Source of the DNA: Candidatus Melainabacteria bacterium RIFCSPHIGHO2_02_FULL_34_12
GTDB taxonomy: Bacteria > Cyanobacteriota > Vampirovibrionia > 2-02-FULL-35-15
Assembly (NCBI GenBank): GCA_001784555.1
Contig: MFRM01000003.1
Coordinates: 47,124-111,123 of the forward strand
DNA length: 64,000 nt
Reading direction: 5' to 3'
The translations under genes and the position numbers were made by a program. The notes beneath the pieces are model-generated. The model was not told where the DNA came from and made no database searches. It worked only from the letters and a program-made list of their open reading frames with translations. Shown piece after piece: positions 20,315-58,139 of this stretch; position 1 is the stretch's first letter, and each line of letters starts with the position of its first letter.

Positions 20315-20818
20315 ATGTCAAAGCTAATCTTAATATCAGAAGGAATAGAAAACAAAATATATTTTATAAGGGGGGTGAAAGTCTTGCTGGATGAAGATTT
20401 GGCAAAGATGTATCAAGTCTCAACAAAAAGACTAAATGAACAAGTAAAAAGGAATAAAAAGAGATTTCCTAAAGATTTTATGTTTCAACTCACGTTTGAA
20501 GAAATTGAAAACTTGAGGTCGCAAATTGCGACCTCAAAAGGTGGTAGAAGATATTTGCCTTATGCTTTTACCGAACAAGGTGTAGCAATGCTTTCAGGAG
20601 TGTTAAATAGTAAAAGAGCTGTTCTAGTAAATATAGAAATCATGAGAGCTTTTGTAAGATTAAGAAAAGTGATTTCTCAGAATAAAGAATTAGCAAAGAA
20701 AATTGAAGAGCTTGAAGGTAAGTATGAAAAACATGACATGGATATACAAGGCATTTTCAATGCAATACATAAAATACTAACTATAGAGGAAAGACCAAAG
20801 AGAAAAGTAGGTTTTTAA
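20315..20818 (+). CDS. ORF6N-domain protein (phage antirepressor-like)
   Basis: IRGVKVLLDEDLAKMYQVSTKRLNEQVKRNKKRFPKDFMFQLT. Confidence 0.88.
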   Translation: MSKLILISEGIENKIYFIRGVKVLLDEDLAKMYQVSTKRLNEQVKRNKKRFPKDFMFQLTFEEIENLRSQIATSKGGRRYLPYAFTEQGVAMLSGVLNSKRAVLVNIEIMRAFVRLRKVISQNKELAKKIEELEGKYEKHDMDIQGIFNAIHKILTIEERPKRKVGF

Positions 20819-32708: not shown

Positions 32709-33895
32709 CCCCGCAAATCCTAGAAAAACAAAAACTATACGAAAACTATTGGCCGTCACTAGACAGCAAAATTGCTATCTGCATGAGCGGTGGAGTAGAC
32801 AGCAGCGTCAGTGCTTATTTACTTGCTAAAAAAGGTTATAAAACTGTCGGACTTACCGGCTGGCTTTTTAAAGGATCCAATCGCTGCTGTGACGGCGGAA
32901 TGATTGATGCAGCAAAGATCTCTGAGTTTATAGGCATAGAACATCTATCTAAAGATTTAAGAGAACTTTTTAAAAATCAAATCGTAGATCATTTTATTTC
33001 TTCCTACGGTAGCGGATCCACACCGATTCCATGCATTACCTGTAACAATGTCATTAAATGGGGATCACTTATGGAATATGCATTTAATGAATTAAATTGT
33101 ACACATATTGCTACGGGTCATTATGCAAAACTGGTAAATGATAACGGATATTTTAAAATCGTCCGTCCAAAAGATTCTAAAAAAGATCAAACATTTATGC
33201 TCTGGGGATTAACACAGGATGTGCTTTCCAGAACAGTTTTTCCATTAGGAGATTTAACAAAAGATGAAGTCAGAGATGCTGCCAGAGACGGAAATTTGTT
33301 TTTAGCCGAAAAAGAAGAAAGTCAGGATATTTGTTTTGTCTCAGAAAAAGAAGGAACTCAGGGGTTCCTTGGAAAATTTCTTGAACAAAAAGAAGGATTT
33401 ATTATTGAAAATAAAACCGGAAATGTTTTAGGAACACATAGCGGTACTCATAATTACACTATCGGTCAAAGAAAAGGCATGGGAATTGCTTATAGCGAAC
33501 CTCTTTATGTAATAGATGTAGATGTAGAAAAAAATATTGTTTATGCAGGTACTAAAGAAGAATTAGAAGGATGTGAATTAATTGCAAAGGATGTGAATTG
33601 GATTTATCCTATAATTGCGAGGAGGCACGAAGTACCGACGAAGCAATCTCGATCGAATTCAAAAGATACGCTCGGGACTGCTTCGGGGTTTTCAACCCCT
33701 CGCAGTGACACTATCCGTGTCATGGCAAAAATCAGATATAATTCAAAAACTTCACCTGCAACAATCTCACTCTTGGAAGATAATAAAATAAAAATGGTCT
33801 TTGATGAACCACAGTCAGCAATTACTCCCGGACAGGCATGTGTGTTTTATGATGAGACGGATCAAATTCTTCTTGGCGGTGGGTGGATAACTTAG
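32705..33895 (+). CDS. mnmA: tRNA-specific 2-thiouridylase MnmA with in-frame repeat insert
   Basis: IAICMSGGVDSSVSAYLLAKKG, ATGHYAKLV, YTIGQRKGMGIA, ITPGQACVFYDE. Confidence 0.96.
   Translation: MTPQILEKQKLYENYWPSLDSKIAICMSGGVDSSVSAYLLAKKGYKTVGLTGWLFKGSNRCCDGGMIDAAKISEFIGIEHLSKDLRELFKNQIVDHFISSYGSGSTPIPCITCNNVIKWGSLMEYAFNELNCTHIATGHYAKLVNDNGYFKIVRPKDSKKDQTFMLWGLTQDVLSRTVFPLGDLTKDEVRDAARDGNLFLAEKEESQDICFVSEKEGTQGFLGKFLEQKEGFIIENKTGNVLGTHSGTHNYTIGQRKGMGIAYSEPLYVIDVDVEKNIVYAGTKEELEGCELIAKDVNWIYPIIARRHEVPTKQSRSNSKDTLGTASGFSTPRSDTIRVMAKIRYNSKTSPATISLLEDNKIKMVFDEPQSAITPGQACVFYDETDQILLGGGWIT
33612..33709. repeat. Long palindromic element inserted in frame in mnmA
   Basis: ATTGCGAGGAGGCACGAAG…CCCCTCGCAGTGAC; encodes IARRHEVPTKQSRSNSKDTLGTASGFSTPRSD. 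Confidence 0.93.
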
Positions 33896-35870: not shown

Positions 35871-36335
35871 ATGATTACTTTAATCCAAAGAGTAACATCT
35901 GCAAAAGTAACCATCGAAAATAAGGTTACAGGCAATATAAAAAATGGGCTGCTTCTATATATAGGCTTTGAAGATGGAGACAACTTAGAAAAAATAAAAT
36001 GGTCCATTAATAAAATAATTAACCTTAGAATATTTGCAGATAAAGAAGACAAGATGAACCTTTCTCTTCTGGATATAAAAGGAGTAGGGGCGTATCGCGA
36101 TACGCCCTTACTATTGGTGATTTCAAATTTCACTCTCCCGGCTGATTTAAATGAATCAGGCAGAAGACCTTCATTTACAAAATCAGCCAGCCCGGAAATA
36201 GCAGAAAATCTCTATAATCAGTTTATAGATGAGTGTAAAAATCAAAATATAAATGTAGCTCAAGGAAAATTCGGCGCCATGATGGATATTGAATCTGTAA
36301 ATGATGGACCGGTTAATTTCATATTAAAAAGATGA
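35871..36335 (+). CDS. dtd: D-aminoacyl-tRNA deacylase with in-frame repeat insert
   Basis: MITLIQRVTSAKVTIE, SNFTLPADLNESGRRPSF, GKFGAMMDIESVNDGPVNFIL. Confidence 0.94.
   Translation: MITLIQRVTSAKVTIENKVTGNIKNGLLLYIGFEDGDNLEKIKWSINKIINLRIFADKEDKMNLSLLDIKGVGAYRDTPLLLVISNFTLPADLNESGRRPSFTKSASPEIAENLYNQFIDECKNQNINVAQGKFGAMMDIESVNDGPVNFILKR
36084..36111. repeat. Short palindrome in dtd, in frame (VGAYRDTPLL)
   Basis: gtaggggcgtatcgcgatacgcccttac. Confidence 0.97.
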
Positions 36336-38042: not shown

Positions 38043-38043
38043 T

Positions 38044-38142
38044 GTCATTGCGAGCCCGCCTTTGGCGGGCGAAGCAATCTCGATCGATTTTGCATAGATA
38101 GTTCGGGGTTGCTTCGTCGGGTAAAACCCTCCTCGCAATGAC
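38044..38142. repeat. Long palindromic element (99 bp), intergenic
   Basis: GTCATTGCGAGCCCGCC…CCTCGCAATGAC. Confidence 0.93.
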
Positions 38143-38160
38143 ATGATAAATTTAATCTTT

Positions 38161-42781: not shown

Positions 42782-44200
42782 ATGAAACAAGTCTACATAG
42801 AAACCTTTGGATGTCAGATGAATAAAGCAGATACAGAGCATATGCTTGGACTTCTGGATGAAATTGATTATAAACATACAGAAAATATTGAAGAAGCTAA
42901 TCTTGTTTTGTTTAATACTTGTACAATTCGTGAAACAGCAAATCATAAATTTTACAGTCAGCTTGGCATTGTTGGAAAAATGAAAAAGCAAAGATGTAGA
43001 GACGGGGTGACCCCGTCTTTACTGCTTGGAGTAGGGGGTTGTGCAGCCCAGGATAAAAAAGAATGGCTGATTAAAAACTTTCCTTATGTAGATATTGTAT
43101 TTGGCACAAATAATATTCAAAATTTACCTGAGCTTGTAAAAAAAGCTGAGAGCGGTAAAAAAGTCTGTGAGATAGAAGAAGAGCTTCCGTATGAGTTGCC
43201 TGAACTGCCTGTAATCCGTCAGACTAAGGTTAGCGCATGGGTAAATGTAATTCTTGGATGTAATTTTAATTGTACTTATTGCATAGTTCCCAGTGTTCGC
43301 GGAAGAGAAAAAAGCAGAAAGCCTGAAGATATTTTAAAAGAAGTTGAAAGGCTTGCAGAAGAAGGATTTAAGGAAGTCACGTTACTTGGGCAGAATGTAA
43401 CTGCTTATGGTTATGATCTTTCATCAAACTACTCAAAAGAAAAAGCCACATTCGGTCACATACCAGATGATCCTGAATATTCACTTGCAAAGCTTATTAG
43501 ATATGTTCATGACGTAGATGGAATTGAAAGAATAAGATTTTTAACAGGGCATCCATTTCATGTAACTGACGAGCTCATAGATACAGTAGCAGAGCTTCCT
43601 AAAGCATGCGAATACTTTCACATTCCCATGCAATCTGGAGATAACACAGTTTTAAAGCGAATGGCTAGAGTTTATACTGTAGAAAAATATAAAGAGATGG
43701 TAGAGAAAATTAGAAATAAAATGCCAAGTAGAGGCGTATTGCAATACGCCCATGCTGCAATCACAAGCGATTTTATAGTAGGTTTTCCTGGTGAGACAGA
43801 GGAGCAGTTTTTAAATACAGTAAAAATTGTTAAAGAAATTGGATTTGATGGGTGCAATACAGCAGCATATTCACCCAGACCCGATACCCCAAGCGCTACA
43901 TGGGATAAACAAATTCCTGAGGAAGAAAAAAATGCAAGACTTAGATATTTAAACTCTGTTGTAAATGAAGTAGTAGGGATTAAAAATAAAGATCTTTTGG
44001 ATACAATTCAGGAAGTTTTAGTAGAAGGTACAAGTAAGCGAAATGAAAACAATTTGAGCGGCAGAACGCGGGGAAATACAATTGTTAATTTTGATCCTAC
44101 AATGGCGGGTTTTAAACCCGCCATTGTAGGCACATTGGTAAATATAAAAATAACAAAGGTAAAACGATGGGCTCTTGATGGTGAGGTGGTAGGCAATTAA
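42782..44200 (+). CDS. miaB: tRNA-2-methylthio-N6-dimethylallyladenosine synthase MiaB with three in-frame palindromes
   Basis: FGCQMNKADTEHM, NVILGCNFNCTYCIVPSVRGREKSR, IVGFPGETEEQF. Confidence 0.96.
   Translation: MKQVYIETFGCQMNKADTEHMLGLLDEIDYKHTENIEEANLVLFNTCTIRETANHKFYSQLGIVGKMKKQRCRDGVTPSLLLGVGGCAAQDKKEWLIKNFPYVDIVFGTNNIQNLPELVKKAESGKKVCEIEEELPYELPELPVIRQTKVSAWVNVILGCNFNCTYCIVPSVRGREKSRKPEDILKEVERLAEEGFKEVTLLGQNVTAYGYDLSSNYSKEKATFGHIPDDPEYSLAKLIRYVHDVDGIERIRFLTGHPFHVTDELIDTVAELPKACEYFHIPMQSGDNTVLKRMARVYTVEKYKEMVEKIRNKMPSRGVLQYAHAAITSDFIVGFPGETEEQFLNTVKIVKEIGFDGCNTAAYSPRPDTPSATWDKQIPEEEKNARLRYLNSVVNEVVGIKNKDLLDTIQEVLVEGTSKRNENNLSGRTRGNTIVNFDPTMAGFKPAIVGTLVNIKITKVKRWALDGEVVGN
42995..43022. 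repeat. Short palindrome in miaB, copy 1, in frame (CRDGVTPSLL)
   Basis: tgtagagacggggtgaccccgtctttac. Confidence 0.93.
43728..43755. repeat. Short palindrome in miaB, copy 2, in frame (SRGVLQYAHA)
   Basis: gtagaggcgtattgcaatacgcccatgc. Confidence 0.9.
44099..44127. repeat. Palindrome in miaB, copy 3, different termini, in frame (TMAGFKPAIV)
   Basis: acaatggcgggttttaaacccgccattgt. Confidence 0.9.
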
Positions 44201-45471
44201 TGCAAAATAATACTAATGAATCTACGCTGGTAAAGACGCCCCAACGGGGCGTTTCCATAATTGGGGAAGGTGAAAAATATCTTGAAAAATACTTCAAATC
44301 CATTGATAACATTGAACAACATAACTTCAATAAAGTCCTAACAGCATTAACAGAAAATAAACTTGGAGAACAACATTTTAGCTGGGTTACAGGATATGGG
44401 CATGATGATATTGGCAGGCAAAAAATCGATCAGATTTTTGCTCAGGTTTTTAATGCAGAAAGTGCTGTAGTACGTCCACAGTTTGTGTCTGGTACTCATA
44501 CGATTTCATGTGTTTTATTTGGTTGTTTAAGACCAGGTGATGAATTGGTTTCAGTTGCAGGAGAGCCTTACGATACTCTGCATAAAGTAATCGGGATACA
44601 TGGTGAACATAAAGGTTCTTTAAAAGATTTTGGTGTTTCATATAAAGAAATTCCTTTAAAAGATAATTTAAATGTTGATTTAGATGCAATCCCTAACTAT
44701 GTTTCAGCTAATACCAAAATGGTCTTTATTCAAAGATCTAAAGGTTATCACTGGAGAAAATCCCTGACCATAAAAGAAATTGAAAAAATAATTTTAAAAG
44801 TAAAAGAAATAAATAAAAATATAATTTGTTTTGTAGACAATTGTTTTGGTGAATTTACTGAAGAGTTTGAACCTACCGATGTAGGAGCAGATATTACATG
44901 CGGTTCACTTATTAAAAATATAGGCGGCGGCATTGTACCTGCAGGCGGTTATATTGCCGGTAAAAAAGAGCTTGTGCATCTATCCGCAGAAAGACTTACA
45001 GCACCTGGAATAGGAGAAAAAGGTGGATGCATGTTTGATTTAAGCAGAGTAATTTTACAGGGATTGTTTTTTGCACCACATGTAGTAGCTCAAATTTTGA
45101 AAGGGATTTCTCTTGTAAGTTATTTTTTCAAAGAAAAAGGTTATGAAGTAAATCCTTTGCCTGATGAAATAAAAACCGATATAGTTGTTGCTATAAAACT
45201 AAAAGACAAAAAACTCCTTGAAAGCATCTGTAAAACTGTTCAGGCTAATAGTCCTGTGAACAGTCATCTTACGCCTGTTCCTTGCAAGCTTCCCGGCTAT
45301 GAGGATGAAGTAATAATGGCAGGTGGAACTTTTATAGAAGGCTCTACAATTGAACTTTCATGTGATGCTCCAATGCGTGAACCTTATATTCTATACTGGC
45401 AGGGTGGATTAAATTATTTGCATACAAAGCATGTACTAACCAAAATTGTCATTGCGAGCCGAACGCAGTGA
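44200..45471 (+). CDS. Methionine gamma-lyase family / aluminium-resistance-like PLP protein
   Basis: HFSWVTGYGHDDIGRQKIDQIFAQVFNAESAVVRPQFVSGTHTI; GEPYDTLHKVIG. Confidence 0.9.
   Translation: MQNNTNESTLVKTPQRGVSIIGEGEKYLEKYFKSIDNIEQHNFNKVLTALTENKLGEQHFSWVTGYGHDDIGRQKIDQIFAQVFNAESAVVRPQFVSGTHTISCVLFGCLRPGDELVSVAGEPYDTLHKVIGIHGEHKGSLKDFGVSYKEIPLKDNLNVDLDAIPNYVSANTKMVFIQRSKGYHWRKSLTIKEIEKIILKVKEINKNIICFVDNCFGEFTEEFEPTDVGADITCGSLIKNIGGGIVPAGGYIAGKKELVHLSAERLTAPGIGEKGGCMFDLSRVILQGLFFAPHVVAQILKGISLVSYFFKEKGYEVNPLPDEIKTDIVVAIKLKDKKLLESICKTVQANSPVNSHLTPVPCKLPGYEDEVIMAGGTFIEGSTIELSCDAPMREPYILYWQGGLNYLHTKHVLTKIVIASRTQ
44232..44254. repeat. Short palindrome near the 5' end of the PLP gene, in frame
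   Basis: aaagacgccccaacggggcgttt. Confidence 0.8.
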
Positions 45472-45573
45472 GGTGTGGCAATCTCACACTGTGATTACGT
45501 TTCATGAGATTTATTGTTACCGTTATTTACATCGTAAGATTGCTTCGTCAGGTAAAACCTTCCTCGCAATGAC
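45448..45573. repeat. Long palindromic element overlapping the 3' end of the PLP gene
   Basis: GTCATTGCGAGCCGAACGCAGTGAGGTGTGGCAATC…CCTCGCAATGAC; encodes the C-terminus IVIASRTQ*. Confidence 0.9.
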
Positions 45574-45614
45574 AATGTCTATCAGGTTCAGTCTTCTAGA
45601 TTTTTGTACCTTAA

Positions 45615-51983: not shown

Positions 51984-52898
51984 ATGCAAAACCCATTTGG
52001 TCAAGTTTTAACAGCAATGATCACACCTTTTTGTAGAGGCGAGGTAACCTCGCCTCTACAAATAGATTATGAAGGCACTGAAAAATTAATTGACCATTTA
52101 ATTAAGACTGGAACAGACACAATCATAGTTGCTGGCACTACAGGTGAAAGTCCTACCTTATCTCATGAAGAAGAAAGAGAACTTTGCAAATTTGTACAAA
52201 AAACTACGGGCAAAAAAATTAAAATAATTCTAGGTGCAGGTTCTAATTCCACAGCAACTGCAATTGAATCCACAAAAGAAGCAGAAAAATTAGGCGTAGA
52301 TGGAGTACTTTCTGTAGTTCCTTATTACAACAAACCAAATCAAAGAGGACTTATTGAACATTTTAGTCAGATTGCAAAGTCTACAAGTCTGCCAATTATT
52401 TTGTATAACATTCCAGGTCGTACTGGAATAAATATGGAGCCTCAAACAGCAGCAGAACTTGTCAGTAAATTTAAAAATATAATTGGATATAAAGATGCTA
52501 CAGGTAATCTGGAAAATACCAGCCAAGTAATACAATTAGCACCAAAAGGATTCCTTATATATAGCGGGGATGACAGCTTAACCCTTCCAATGTTATCTAT
52601 AGGAGCTGTTGGTGTTATAAGCGTAGCCAGTCATATTGTTGGAAATGAAATTAAGGATATGATAAATTCTTTCTTTACGGGTAAAATAGATAAAGCAAAA
52701 GAGATTCATAACAAACTTTTTCCTTTATTTAAAGCATTATTTAAGGCACCAAATCCTACATGTATAAAAGCAGCACTGGAAATAAAAGGAATATGCAAAT
52801 CAGATTTAAGATTGCCACTTGTAAAATTAACTGAAAAAGAATTAGCTGAATTAAAAATGGTGATTGAAAAAATAGAAAATCAATTAATCAAGGCATAA
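51984..52898 (+). CDS. dapA: 4-hydroxy-tetrahydrodipicolinate synthase with in-frame palindrome
   Basis: IIVAGTTGESPTLSHEEE, PYYNKPNQRGLIEHF, YNIPGRTGINM. Confidence 0.96.
   Translation: MQNPFGQVLTAMITPFCRGEVTSPLQIDYEGTEKLIDHLIKTGTDTIIVAGTTGESPTLSHEEERELCKFVQKTTGKKIKIILGAGSNSTATAIESTKEAEKLGVDGVLSVVPYYNKPNQRGLIEHFSQIAKSTSLPIILYNIPGRTGINMEPQTAAELVSKFKNIIGYKDATGNLENTSQVIQLAPKGFLIYSGDDSLTLPMLSIGAVGVISVASHIVGNEIKDMINSFFTGKIDKAKEIHNKLFPLFKALFKAPNPTCIKAALEIKGICKSDLRLPLVKLTEKELAELKMVIEKIENQLIKA
52032..52060. repeat. Short palindrome in dapA, in frame (CRGEVTSPLQ)
   Basis: tgtagaggcgaggtaacctcgcctctaca. Confidence 0.97.
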
Positions 52899-55693: not shown

Positions 55694-56656
55694 TTACATA
55701 ATCAATCCATTCAAATACTCGTCAAAATCAAATTCTACGATGTCGTCTATTTGTTCACCTGTTCCTATAAATTTTACAGGTAGAGAAAGTTTGTTCATAA
55801 TATTTAAAATCACACCGCCCTTTGCAGAACTGTCGAGCTTAGAAAGAATAATGCCGGTAAGTCCAATGGCTTTTGAAAATAATTCTGCCTGAACAATTGC
55901 ATTTTGACCAATCGTGGCATCCAGTACGATTAGCTTCTCAAGATTTGGAGCCATGCCAAGGCATGGCTTTACAAATTTTTCGATTATAGAATTTATTTTC
56001 CGCAATTCATCCATGAGATTAATCTGTGAATGTAATCTCCCTGCAGTATCAATGAGGACAACATTAAAATTTTCATTTTTTGCTTTCTTAAGCGCAGCAT
56101 AAACTACAGCATCTGGTTTTTTAACCTCAGGAGGTGAAAATATTTCTGCTTCTGCTCGCTTTGCCCATACATCAAGCTGTTCTCCTGCAGCTGCACGAAA
56201 GGTATCTCCTGCCACGATTAAAACTTTTTGTTTGCCATCTTTAAATCTCCTTGCAAGTTTGCCTATAGATGTGGTTTTACCGGAGCCGTTTACACCGACG
56301 ATTAAATAAATTCCGTTTTGAAGGTGGGGTCCCGGGACTTCACCTTCGGGTAATTGTGATTTTATTGTTTCCTTTATTTTTTCTTGTAATTTATTTTTTT
56401 CAATCTGTAAGGGCGTGCCATGGACTGCCCCTACTTTTATATTCTTCTTTAATTCATTAATAATTTTTTCAGACAGCTCAAGACCTACATCAGCTTTAAT
56501 GAATTTTTCTAAAAGACTGTCATAGAATTCTTCATCAACATTTATGTTTATATTCTCTGTCGTAGGGACGTAGCGAGCTACGTCCCTACGGGTTTTTGAT
56601 AATGCTTCTTTTATCTTGAATATATTATTTTCCAACCACTTCTTCATCTTAAGCAT
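55694..56656 (-). CDS. ftsY: Signal recognition particle receptor FtsY with four in-frame palindromes
   Basis: GVNGSGKTTSIGKLARRF, VAGDTFRAAAGEQLDVWAKR, IDTAGRLHSQINLMDEL, LSKLDSSAKGG. Confidence 0.96.
   Translation of the reverse strand: MLKMKKWLENNIFKIKEALSKTRRDVARYVPTTENININVDEEFYDSLLEKFIKADVGLELSEKIINELKKNIKVGAVHGTPLQIEKNKLQEKIKETIKSQLPEGEVPGPHLQNGIYLIVGVNGSGKTTSIGKLARRFKDGKQKVLIVAGDTFRAAAGEQLDVWAKRAEAEIFSPPEVKKPDAVVYAALKKAKNENFNVVLIDTAGRLHSQINLMDELRKINSIIEKFVKPCLGMAPNLEKLIVLDATIGQNAIVQAELFSKAIGLTGIILSKLDSSAKGGVILNIMNKLSLPVKFIGTGEQIDDIVEFDFDEYLNGLIM
55949..55973. repeat. Palindrome in ftsY, in frame (VKPCLGMAP)
   Basis: agccatgccaaggcatggctttaca. Confidence 0.85.
56320..56347. repeat. 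Palindrome in ftsY, in frame (EGEVPGPHLQ)
   Basis: gaaggtggggtcccgggacttcaccttc. Confidence 0.85.
56406..56434. repeat. Palindrome in ftsY, in frame (VGAVHGTPLQ)
   Basis: tgtaagggcgtgccatggactgcccctac. Confidence 0.88.
56561..56590. repeat. Palindrome in ftsY, in frame (TRRDVARYVPT)
   Basis: cgtagggacgtagcgagctacgtccctacg. Confidence 0.95.
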
Positions 56657-56669
56657 CTATAATAACATT

Positions 56670-58139
56670 ATGGTTAACAAGGACTCCATTGCATTACTCC
56701 CTCTAGACGACCGTCCAGTTTCTTATCTACTTCCAAAACAAATTGCTGATTTTTCAGGAGTAAATTTAATTTTACCTGAGAGAAAATATCTTGGTGATTT
56801 AAATCATGGATCTGATTTGAAATATATTGATAATTGGTGTAGGGGCGTATTGCAATACGCCCCTACATTTGTTGTTTCATTGGACAGCTGGGTTTACGGT
56901 GGATTGGTTCAATCAAGAAAACACGATTTCACATTAGACGAATTAAAGAAACGTGTTAGTGCACTCGCGGGAGGCGAGGTCCCGGGATCTCGCCTGCAGA
57001 ATGTTTATGGATTTTCATCCATAATGCGAATCCCAAATTATAATTCCAGCGAAGAAGAAAAAGATTACTGGAAAGACTATGGAGAAAGTATTTTTAAGTG
57101 GTCTGAGCTTATGCATAAAGTAGGAAGAGGGATTACTGAAAAAGGAACATCTCATGAAGAGCTGCTGGAAAAATGGTATGAGAGTTCAAAATCAATTCCA
57201 GTGAACGTTCTGGCTGATTATAAAAGACACAGAGATAAAAACCTTACGGTTAATTTGCTTTGGATCGAACTGTCACATGATAAATGTTTTGAATGTTTAA
57301 TTTTTTCATGTGACGATTCTTCTAGATATGGAATGAATGTAATTGAAGCTGAATATATTAAACGAGAAATTAAAAAGCACAGATTTTCAGATCTAGCTAA
57401 AGTAATTTCAGGCACTGATGAAATATCTCTTGTTCTTATGACTAAAGCAAATCTTAAATCACAAGACAAAAAACCTTCTCTATGTCTTTTCTTTAACAGC
57501 ATTGAGGGTAAAACCCAGATCCCAAGATATGAATCAAATACAATACATGAATCTATTAAAGATCAAATAGATACTTTAGGGCTTGAAATAAAAGATTTAA
57601 ATGAATCTGATATTTTAGTTTGTATTCATCTTTCAGATTCAGTCCAGGGAGATCATATTTTTAAAATTAAACCCTGCGACACTTCAAAAAATATTGAAGA
57701 GCTAAAGAATATGCTTGAAAAAATTAATAAGCCTTTTATTCTGATAGATCTTGCATATGCAAACGGATCAGATCCACAGCTCATAGAAGCACTGATAAAT
57801 TCAAAAATCAACTGGGACCATTGTTACGGTTATGCAGGCTGGAATACCTGCTCAAACAGCACTGGTTCAGCTCTAGCAATAGGAATAAACAGGTGGATTG
57901 CTGAAAAAAATAGTTCCTTTAATAAGATTGCATTTAAAAAATGTCTTCTTACAAGATTTTTAGATGATTATGCATATCAGGCTCAGATAAGACATGTTGG
58001 TATTACAGAAAAAGAGATAAACAAAAAAATAATGCCACATGTTCAGGCATTTTCAAAACTTTTAGGAATAAATGATATAAAGGTAAAATGTTCACTGCCA
58101 TGGAAAAGAACATTTGAAGCAGAGATCGATGTCATATAA
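56670..58139 (+). CDS. DUF4127-like family protein with two in-frame palindromes
   Basis: IALLPLDDRPVSYLLPKQIA; VVSLDSWVYGGLVQSRKH; DLAYANGSDPQLIEAL. Confidence 0.82.
   Translation: MVNKDSIALLPLDDRPVSYLLPKQIADFSGVNLILPERKYLGDLNHGSDLKYIDNWCRGVLQYAPTFVVSLDSWVYGGLVQSRKHDFTLDELKKRVSALAGGEVPGSRLQNVYGFSSIMRIPNYNSSEEEKDYWKDYGESIFKWSELMHKVGRGITEKGTSHEELLEKWYESSKSIPVNVLADYKRHRDKNLTVNLLWIELSHDKCFECLIFSCDDSSRYGMNVIEAEYIKREIKKHRFSDLAKVISGTDEISLVLMTKANLKSQDKKPSLCLFFNSIEGKTQIPRYESNTIHESIKDQIDTLGLEIKDLNESDILVCIHLSDSVQGDHIFKIKPCDTSKNIEELKNMLEKINKPFILIDLAYANGSDPQLIEALINSKINWDHCYGYAGWNTCSNSTGSALAIGINRWIAEKNSSFNKIAFKKCLLTRFLDDYAYQAQIRHVGITEKEINKKIMPHVQAFSKLLGINDIKVKCSLPWKRTFEAEIDVI
56838..56867. repeat. 30-bp perfect palindrome in the DUF4127-like gene, in frame (CRGVLQYAPT)
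   Basis: tgtaggggcgtattgcaatacgcccctaca. Confidence 0.98.
56971..56997. repeat. Palindrome in the DUF4127-like gene, copy 2, in frame (GGEVPGSRLQ)
   Basis: gaggcgaggtcccgggatctcgcctgc. Confidence 0.85.

Follow-up and report, generated by a model that had tools for sequence, protein, structure and literature searches.

The window, by which we mean the whole stretch of 64,000 nucleotides that was analysed, contains an ftsY gene in which four palindromic DNA segments are translated, a divergently oriented neighbour encoding a DUF4127 protein with two further palindromes, a gene for a RAYT-type Y1 transposase that has a palindrome of its own, and several other palindrome-bearing genes (Table 1). 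FtsY, the protein-targeting (SRP) receptor, is an essential protein. The product encoded here was identified by profile search (TIGR00064, 303 bits, cut-off 260.7), contains the Pfam domains SRP54 and SRP54_N, and retains unbroken GTPase motifs in the alignment (GVNGSGKTT, DTFRAAA, DTAGR, DATIGQN and SKLD). A second canonical ftsY, which the original prediction had named beforehand as the refuting observation, was not found in the genome: ftsY is single-copy, and the two proteins matching PF00448 are FtsY itself and a 505-aa protein of Ffh type. Among the relatives searched (designated below by genome codes such as G001), one member of the same family that is listed as 96% complete (G007) gave no FtsY or Ffh match, and at least one match was obtained in each of the 59 others.

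Table 1. Genes and palindromic elements of the window discussed in the text (positions are those of the window).
Feature	Position	Strand	Description
ftsY	55694..56656	(-)	320 aa, SRP receptor GTPase
ftsY site 1	56561..56590	(-)	palindrome CGTAGGGACGTAGC-TC-GCTACGTCCCTACG, perfect 14-bp arms
ftsY site 2	56407..56434	(-)	palindrome, 10/14 pairs; dispersed repeat family D1, 82%
ftsY site 3	56320..56347	(-)	palindrome, 12/14 pairs, GAAG...CTTC ends
ftsY site 4	55949..55968	(-)	palindrome core, perfect 9-bp; outer arms decayed
Palindrome in DUF4127 gene (divergent neighbour of ftsY)	56838..56867	(+)	perfect 15-bp arms, CRGVLQYAPT
Second palindrome in DUF4127 gene	56972..56995	(+)	GGEVPGSRL; other palindrome at same site in G009
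RAYT-type Y1 transposase gene	32112..32708	(+)	198 aa, HUH motif MPNHLHG
Palindrome in RAYT gene	32442..32470	(+)	TGTAGGGGCGGGGTTACCCCGCCCCTACA, in frame, CRGGVTPPLQ, 17 aa past HUH
Palindrome in D-Tyr-tRNA deacylase-like gene	36083..36112	(+)	GVGAYRDTPLL; net +8 aa vs 4/4 relatives
miaB-like gene	42782..44200	(+)	3 palindromes: 42996-43022, 43733-43750, 44096-44130
Palindrome in dapA-like gene	52030..52062	(+)	FCRGEVTSPLQI, net +5 aa; G001 same place: GTAGTGGTGAGGTTACCTCATCACTAC

The four peptides that had been singled out in FtsY (TRRDVARYVPT, VGAVHGTPLQ, EGEVPGPHLQ and VKPCLGMAP) each correspond, as proposed, to a dyad-symmetric segment of the gene, and all four segments fold better than dinucleotide shuffles. 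Their reported placement was likewise confirmed, since the third palindrome ends directly ahead of the P-loop strand (GVNGSGKTT) and the fourth directly ahead of LIVLDAT. Site 1 encodes RRDVARYVPT (aa 23-32) in the N-terminal linker and has a predicted RNA hairpin of -24.2 kcal/mol (z -6.9 against dinucleotide shuffles), site 2 encodes VGAVHGTPLQ (aa 75-84) in the coil joining two N-domain helices (z -2.9), site 3 encodes EGEVPGPHLQ (aa 104-113) in the N-G linker (z -2.7), and site 4 encodes KPCLGMA (aa 230-236) in the loop before the LIVLDAT strand (z -3.2). Sites 2 and 4 match the dispersed repeat family D1. An intact GTAG/CTAC tag pair is present only at site 1; the corresponding ends are GTAG/TTAC at site 2 and GAAG/CTTC at site 3, and those of site 4 are decayed. 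A separate GAAG...CTTC subfamily, as site 3 might represent, was considered and rejected: just one strict copy was detected in a 400-kb sample of the genome, in an mnmE-like gene.

A structural model of FtsY was built with AlphaFold (mean pLDDT 66, pTM 0.63), its moderate confidence being due to the two-sequence alignment (window and L001 sequences) that served as input. The best structural match of the model is the FtsY crystal structure 1vma (E 2.3e-21, TM 0.68). All four palindrome sites are located in coil or at helix ends, among which the stretches 1-33, 77-79, 104-111 and 233-236 have pLDDT values below 50. The idea that the palindromes occupy tolerant loops fits this model; the protein may be fully active.

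The reading of the four segments as inserts, or as loop extensions, stands only in part. Sites 2 and 4 lengthen FtsY by 7 and 5 aa, respectively, and all four sites have the modelled coil or helix-end location, but site 1 brings no net change in length and site 3 falls 2-4 aa short of the same region in G004 and G001 (read from the alignment). Approximately 37 aa are specified by the ftsY palindromes, yet FtsY is only ~6-10 aa longer than its palindrome-free relatives (320 aa here versus 310 and 311 in G004 and G002), and therefore not all four palindromes represent added sequence. Among 15 cases in which the flanks were well aligned and the palindrome-free relatives agreed in length, the net gain per palindrome ranged from 0 to +8 residues and never reached the 9-10 residues that simple insertion of a whole element should give, and element-free orthologues were found to have gaps or other loop sequence at the palindrome places. 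As to inserts or REPLACEMENTS, these comparisons with orthologues from relatives suggest that the palindromes mostly replaced variable loop sequence, the loss having occurred upon insertion or by deletion afterwards.

The genome contains a dispersed family of small dyad-symmetric repeats of the form GTAG-arm-arm'-CTAC (27-29 nt), in whose intact copies GTAG pairs with CTAC instead of forming an unpaired tag at one end of a stem-loop. The strict pattern GTAGNGNC-N8-18-GNCNCTAC occurs in 83 copies in the 2.1-Mb genome, and the reversed control pattern in none. A 400-kb sample of stretches, which is also the basis of the gene-level statistics (ORFs being assigned by a simple longest-ORF rule and not by a trained gene finder), yielded 57 palindromes with an arm score of at least 10, compared to 0-3 in Markov-shuffled controls, and palindrome scans without any GTAG requirement also returned mostly GTAG...CTAC ends. 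Among the 28-nt copies, 23 of 25 cores are distinct although the outer bases are common, and arm pairing amounts to 88-96% at every position, with 31-82% expected from independent arms. Around two thirds of the family-like copies in the sample (51 of 74) lie inside ORFs. Among the intragenic copies, 13 have their GTAG in codon frame 0 and 21 in frame 1, and the absence of copies in the TAG-reading frame follows from the ORFs being open and shows only that copies are read through. Copies per ORF were in mild excess in a Poisson test (two ORFs with three copies and one with four, where 0.36 and 0.03 were expected).

Two further observations were made on repeats of this genome. Just upstream of the window (G000, the source genome, C3:46914-46960), a palindrome is partially duplicated in tandem and encodes GRDLLQQVSTLLQQVST, which may record the way in which copies grow. 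In addition, a second repeat family, TGTCATTGCGAG...GAAGCAATC...CTCGCAATGACA (D2, D6, D11-D14), is present at 23853-23908, 33634-33689, 38043-38143, 45447-45574 and other places of the window, and some of its copies appear to be translated in an amidase-like gene (23576-24508) and an mnmA-like gene (32705-33895).

FtsY is not special in carrying palindromes, as window genes of MiaB, MnmE, PrmC, Def, D-Tyr-tRNA deacylase (DTD), DapA and ArgS type (all named from sequence) hold similar ones. The core GTCCCGGGAY is common to ftsY site 3 and the second DUF4127 palindrome, which suggests that copies were exchanged between these neighbouring genes. In the prmC-like gene (60784-61641), the same PrmC loop holds different repeat families across genera, including a VIPAKAGIQ...PGMT-type repeat in G009 and a WIPTSVGMT-type repeat in G001. 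The DNA palindrome TTGAGGTCGCAAATTGCGACCTCAA, which encodes LRSQIATS in the window (20315-20818) and in G009 (C6:241603-242121), is kept between genera, unlike the mobile palindromes, and is probably a protein motif.

Three of the four FtsY sites were found to hold other palindromes in related genera (G001, G006, G009 and G010), namely site 1 in G001 and G009, site 3 in G009, G010 and G006 (in the last case of the second repeat family), and site 4 in G001, G006 and G010; site 2 is occupied in the source genome only, as read from the alignment. The FtsY proteins of G002, G003 and G004 are palindrome-free. When all orthologue pairs with palindromes in both members were considered, 17 of 33 elements shared their site (defined as lying within 7 alignment columns) with a palindrome of the orthologue, one of the 17 being a conserved protein motif and no element, whereas the null mean was 2.0 and the maximum 8 in 1000 draws. 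Palindromes at a shared site hardly exceed random pairs in arm similarity (mean distance 0.53 versus 0.60). Tolerant loops may have been hit anew, or the shared sites may go back to old insertions that have since changed in sequence.

A candidate mobiliser of these elements is the RAYT-type transposase. Its ORF matches PF01797 (27.2 bits against a cut-off of 23, with its neighbours in the frame) and the NCBIfam model REP_Tyr_transpos (NF047646, E 3.2e-17), the latter with 62.8 bits, which is below the curated cut-off of 80; the in-frame palindrome may lower this score. The palindrome is inside the RAYT gene and does not flank it. Intact RAYT homologues numbered 41, some of them from other parts of the phylum, and in 21 of these the loop past the HUH motif contains a GTAR...YTAC palindrome; such an in-frame palindrome, with varied cores, is shown by the majority of homologues within the family and by several from the phylum at large. 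No description of a palindrome inside a transposase frame was found in the literature searched, although one may exist elsewhere. Genomes of the same family that possess the RAYT type of the window have 83, 77, 67, 20, 17, 10, 8 and 7 strict elements, and those that lack it have 4, 1 and 0. This perfect split (8 versus 3) has a chance of 1 in 165 under the assumption of independent genomes, which genomes of one family are not, so the association is correlational. A RAYT remnant in G004 is decayed, yet this genome has 8 elements. The RAYT-borne core showed no significant match to the dispersed cores of the same genome (88 of 720 permutations were as good). A Mantel test of RAYT distance versus carried core gave r 0.475 (p 0.0002), which may be plain co-inheritance because the palindrome lies within the RAYT gene. 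We infer that mobilisation by the RAYT of the window is the best-supported reading of these data.

Intragenic GTAG REPs and Rickettsia palindromic elements (RPEs) are already known, and the differences here are the pairing of GTAG with CTAC, the mostly intragenic location, the many cores per genome and the palindrome in the transposase frame. GTAG REPs are small GTAG-tagged palindromes with many dispersed copies that co-occur with RAYTs, some of them being intragenic and translated (Di Nocera, De Gregorio and Rocco 2013, PMC3733652), and two Xanthomonas species are reported to have different REPs at nearly the same position in recB (PMC3733652). The elements described here share with them the terminal GTAG and, with 27-29 nt and 83 strict copies, belong to the same 20-40 bp class. 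However, GTAG REPs have an unpaired tag and a stem-loop and are mostly extragenic, whereas our elements form one uninterrupted dyad, are intragenic in 51 of 74 cases (400-kb sample) and have highly variable cores within one genome. With regard to the REPtron, in which a RAYT is flanked by REPs, a RAYT is present here and tracks element number, but the palindrome is within the gene. The RAYT/TnpA-REP enzymes studied so far cleave single-stranded GTAG hairpins (NAR 2021, PMC8266576) and are HUH-motif transposases of the Y1 family (Nunvar 2010, PMC2817692; PMC8266576). The window gene resembles them in its HUH motif, Y1 family membership and match to the REP_Tyr_transpos model; it differs in scoring below the NCBIfam cut-off (62.8 versus 80) and in having its palindrome in frame past HUH, whereas the known palindromes flank the gene. 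PMC10969869 and PMC2229807 present RPEs as selfish palindromic DNA that is tolerated in frame in conserved genes, with a length of ~100-150 bp and conserved peptides (Ogata 2000, 2002, cited therein), and rickettsial REP-type repeats are CGTC-tagged and have no known transposase (PMC3733652). In-frame palindromes in conserved protein genes are also what we observed, but they are 27-29 nt long, use two reading frames and have a variable core, whereas RPEs measure ~100-150 bp and their peptide is conserved.

Considering these features, it is likely that the ftsY segments are non-autonomous REP-like elements (GTAG...CTAC, 27-29 nt) of different age and decay, which are mobilised in trans by a RAYT and kept in tolerant loops. 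Net gains that fall short of a whole element and the non-significant match of the RAYT-borne core to the dispersed cores count against this reading. In such a process, a RAYT-type Y1/HUH transposase would act in trans on the single-stranded hairpin of an element and new copies would land genome-wide. Intragenic copies would survive where the net length is divisible by three, the frame is free of stops and a surface loop tolerates the change; a surviving copy would then contribute 9-10 residues to the protein, usually in place of some loop residues. FtsY would offer four tolerant loops of this kind, namely the N-terminal linker, the N-G linker, a loop that connects two helices of the N domain and the loop that leads into the DATIGQN strand. 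A more far-reaching proposal, which we regard as speculative, concerns a RAYT lineage of this family and elsewhere in the phylum with a palindrome in its own frame past HUH. This lineage would spread arm-symmetric copies and, by hairpin-templated copying, restore their cores to perfect palindromes; the copies would overwrite loop sequence instead of simply adding to it and would hit the same loops of essential proteins, FtsY among them, time and again.

Alternatively, the palindromes might have been made in situ, with template switching (quasi-palindrome correction) creating and keeping loop-coding inverted repeats in loops that tolerate change, without any mobile element. This would account for replacement without added length, as at ftsY sites 1 and 3, and for the upkeep of symmetry during sequence change, which is seen in the very diverse but still symmetric cores and in the paired changes on both arms that separate the source genome from G001 at ftsY site 1 and, likewise, in the dapA palindromes. 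We nevertheless consider such an origin improbable, as local correction cannot produce the outer bases GTAGNGNC...GNCNCTAC that are common to 83 genomic copies, and the low likeness of arms at shared sites (0.53 versus 0.60 in random pairs) also argues against it. A single ancestral insertion in the family, followed by arm-symmetric change or by gene conversion between dispersed copies, would depart from the best explanation only in attributing the shared sites to common descent. The same sites are indeed occupied across several genera, and unoccupied relatives have equal loop length at site 1; however, the restriction of ftsY site 2 to the source genome, together with the unrelated cores or even different repeat families among the palindromes of DUF4127, PrmC and ftsY site 3, makes this scenario rather unlikely too.

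It is also conceivable, but very unlikely, that selection for FtsY function acts on the palindromes as RNA or protein features, such as translation pauses or a new binding surface. The stable mRNA hairpins (predicted folds) and the recurrence of palindromes at the same sites in relatives are in line with selection, whereas the presence of the same elements in many unrelated genes and intergenic regions, the palindrome-free FtsY of G002, G003 and G004, and the decay of ftsY sites 2 and 4 are not. Chance or an assembly artefact, for which only the draft state of the genome (26 contigs) could be adduced, is already refuted by control counts of zero or nearly so and by similar elements in several separately assembled relatives.

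These palindromes raise the questions of how symmetry is maintained across dozens of cores per genome and of elements replacing target sequence as opposed to only adding to it. In-frame selfish DNA, best known from Rickettsia, is now observed in a Cyanobacteria-related lineage, and the gene for a candidate enzyme lies in the same window. In this lineage, nature has in effect carried out a mutational scan of the essential FtsY, a small GTPase that has four translated palindromes here and between zero and three at the same sites in relatives.
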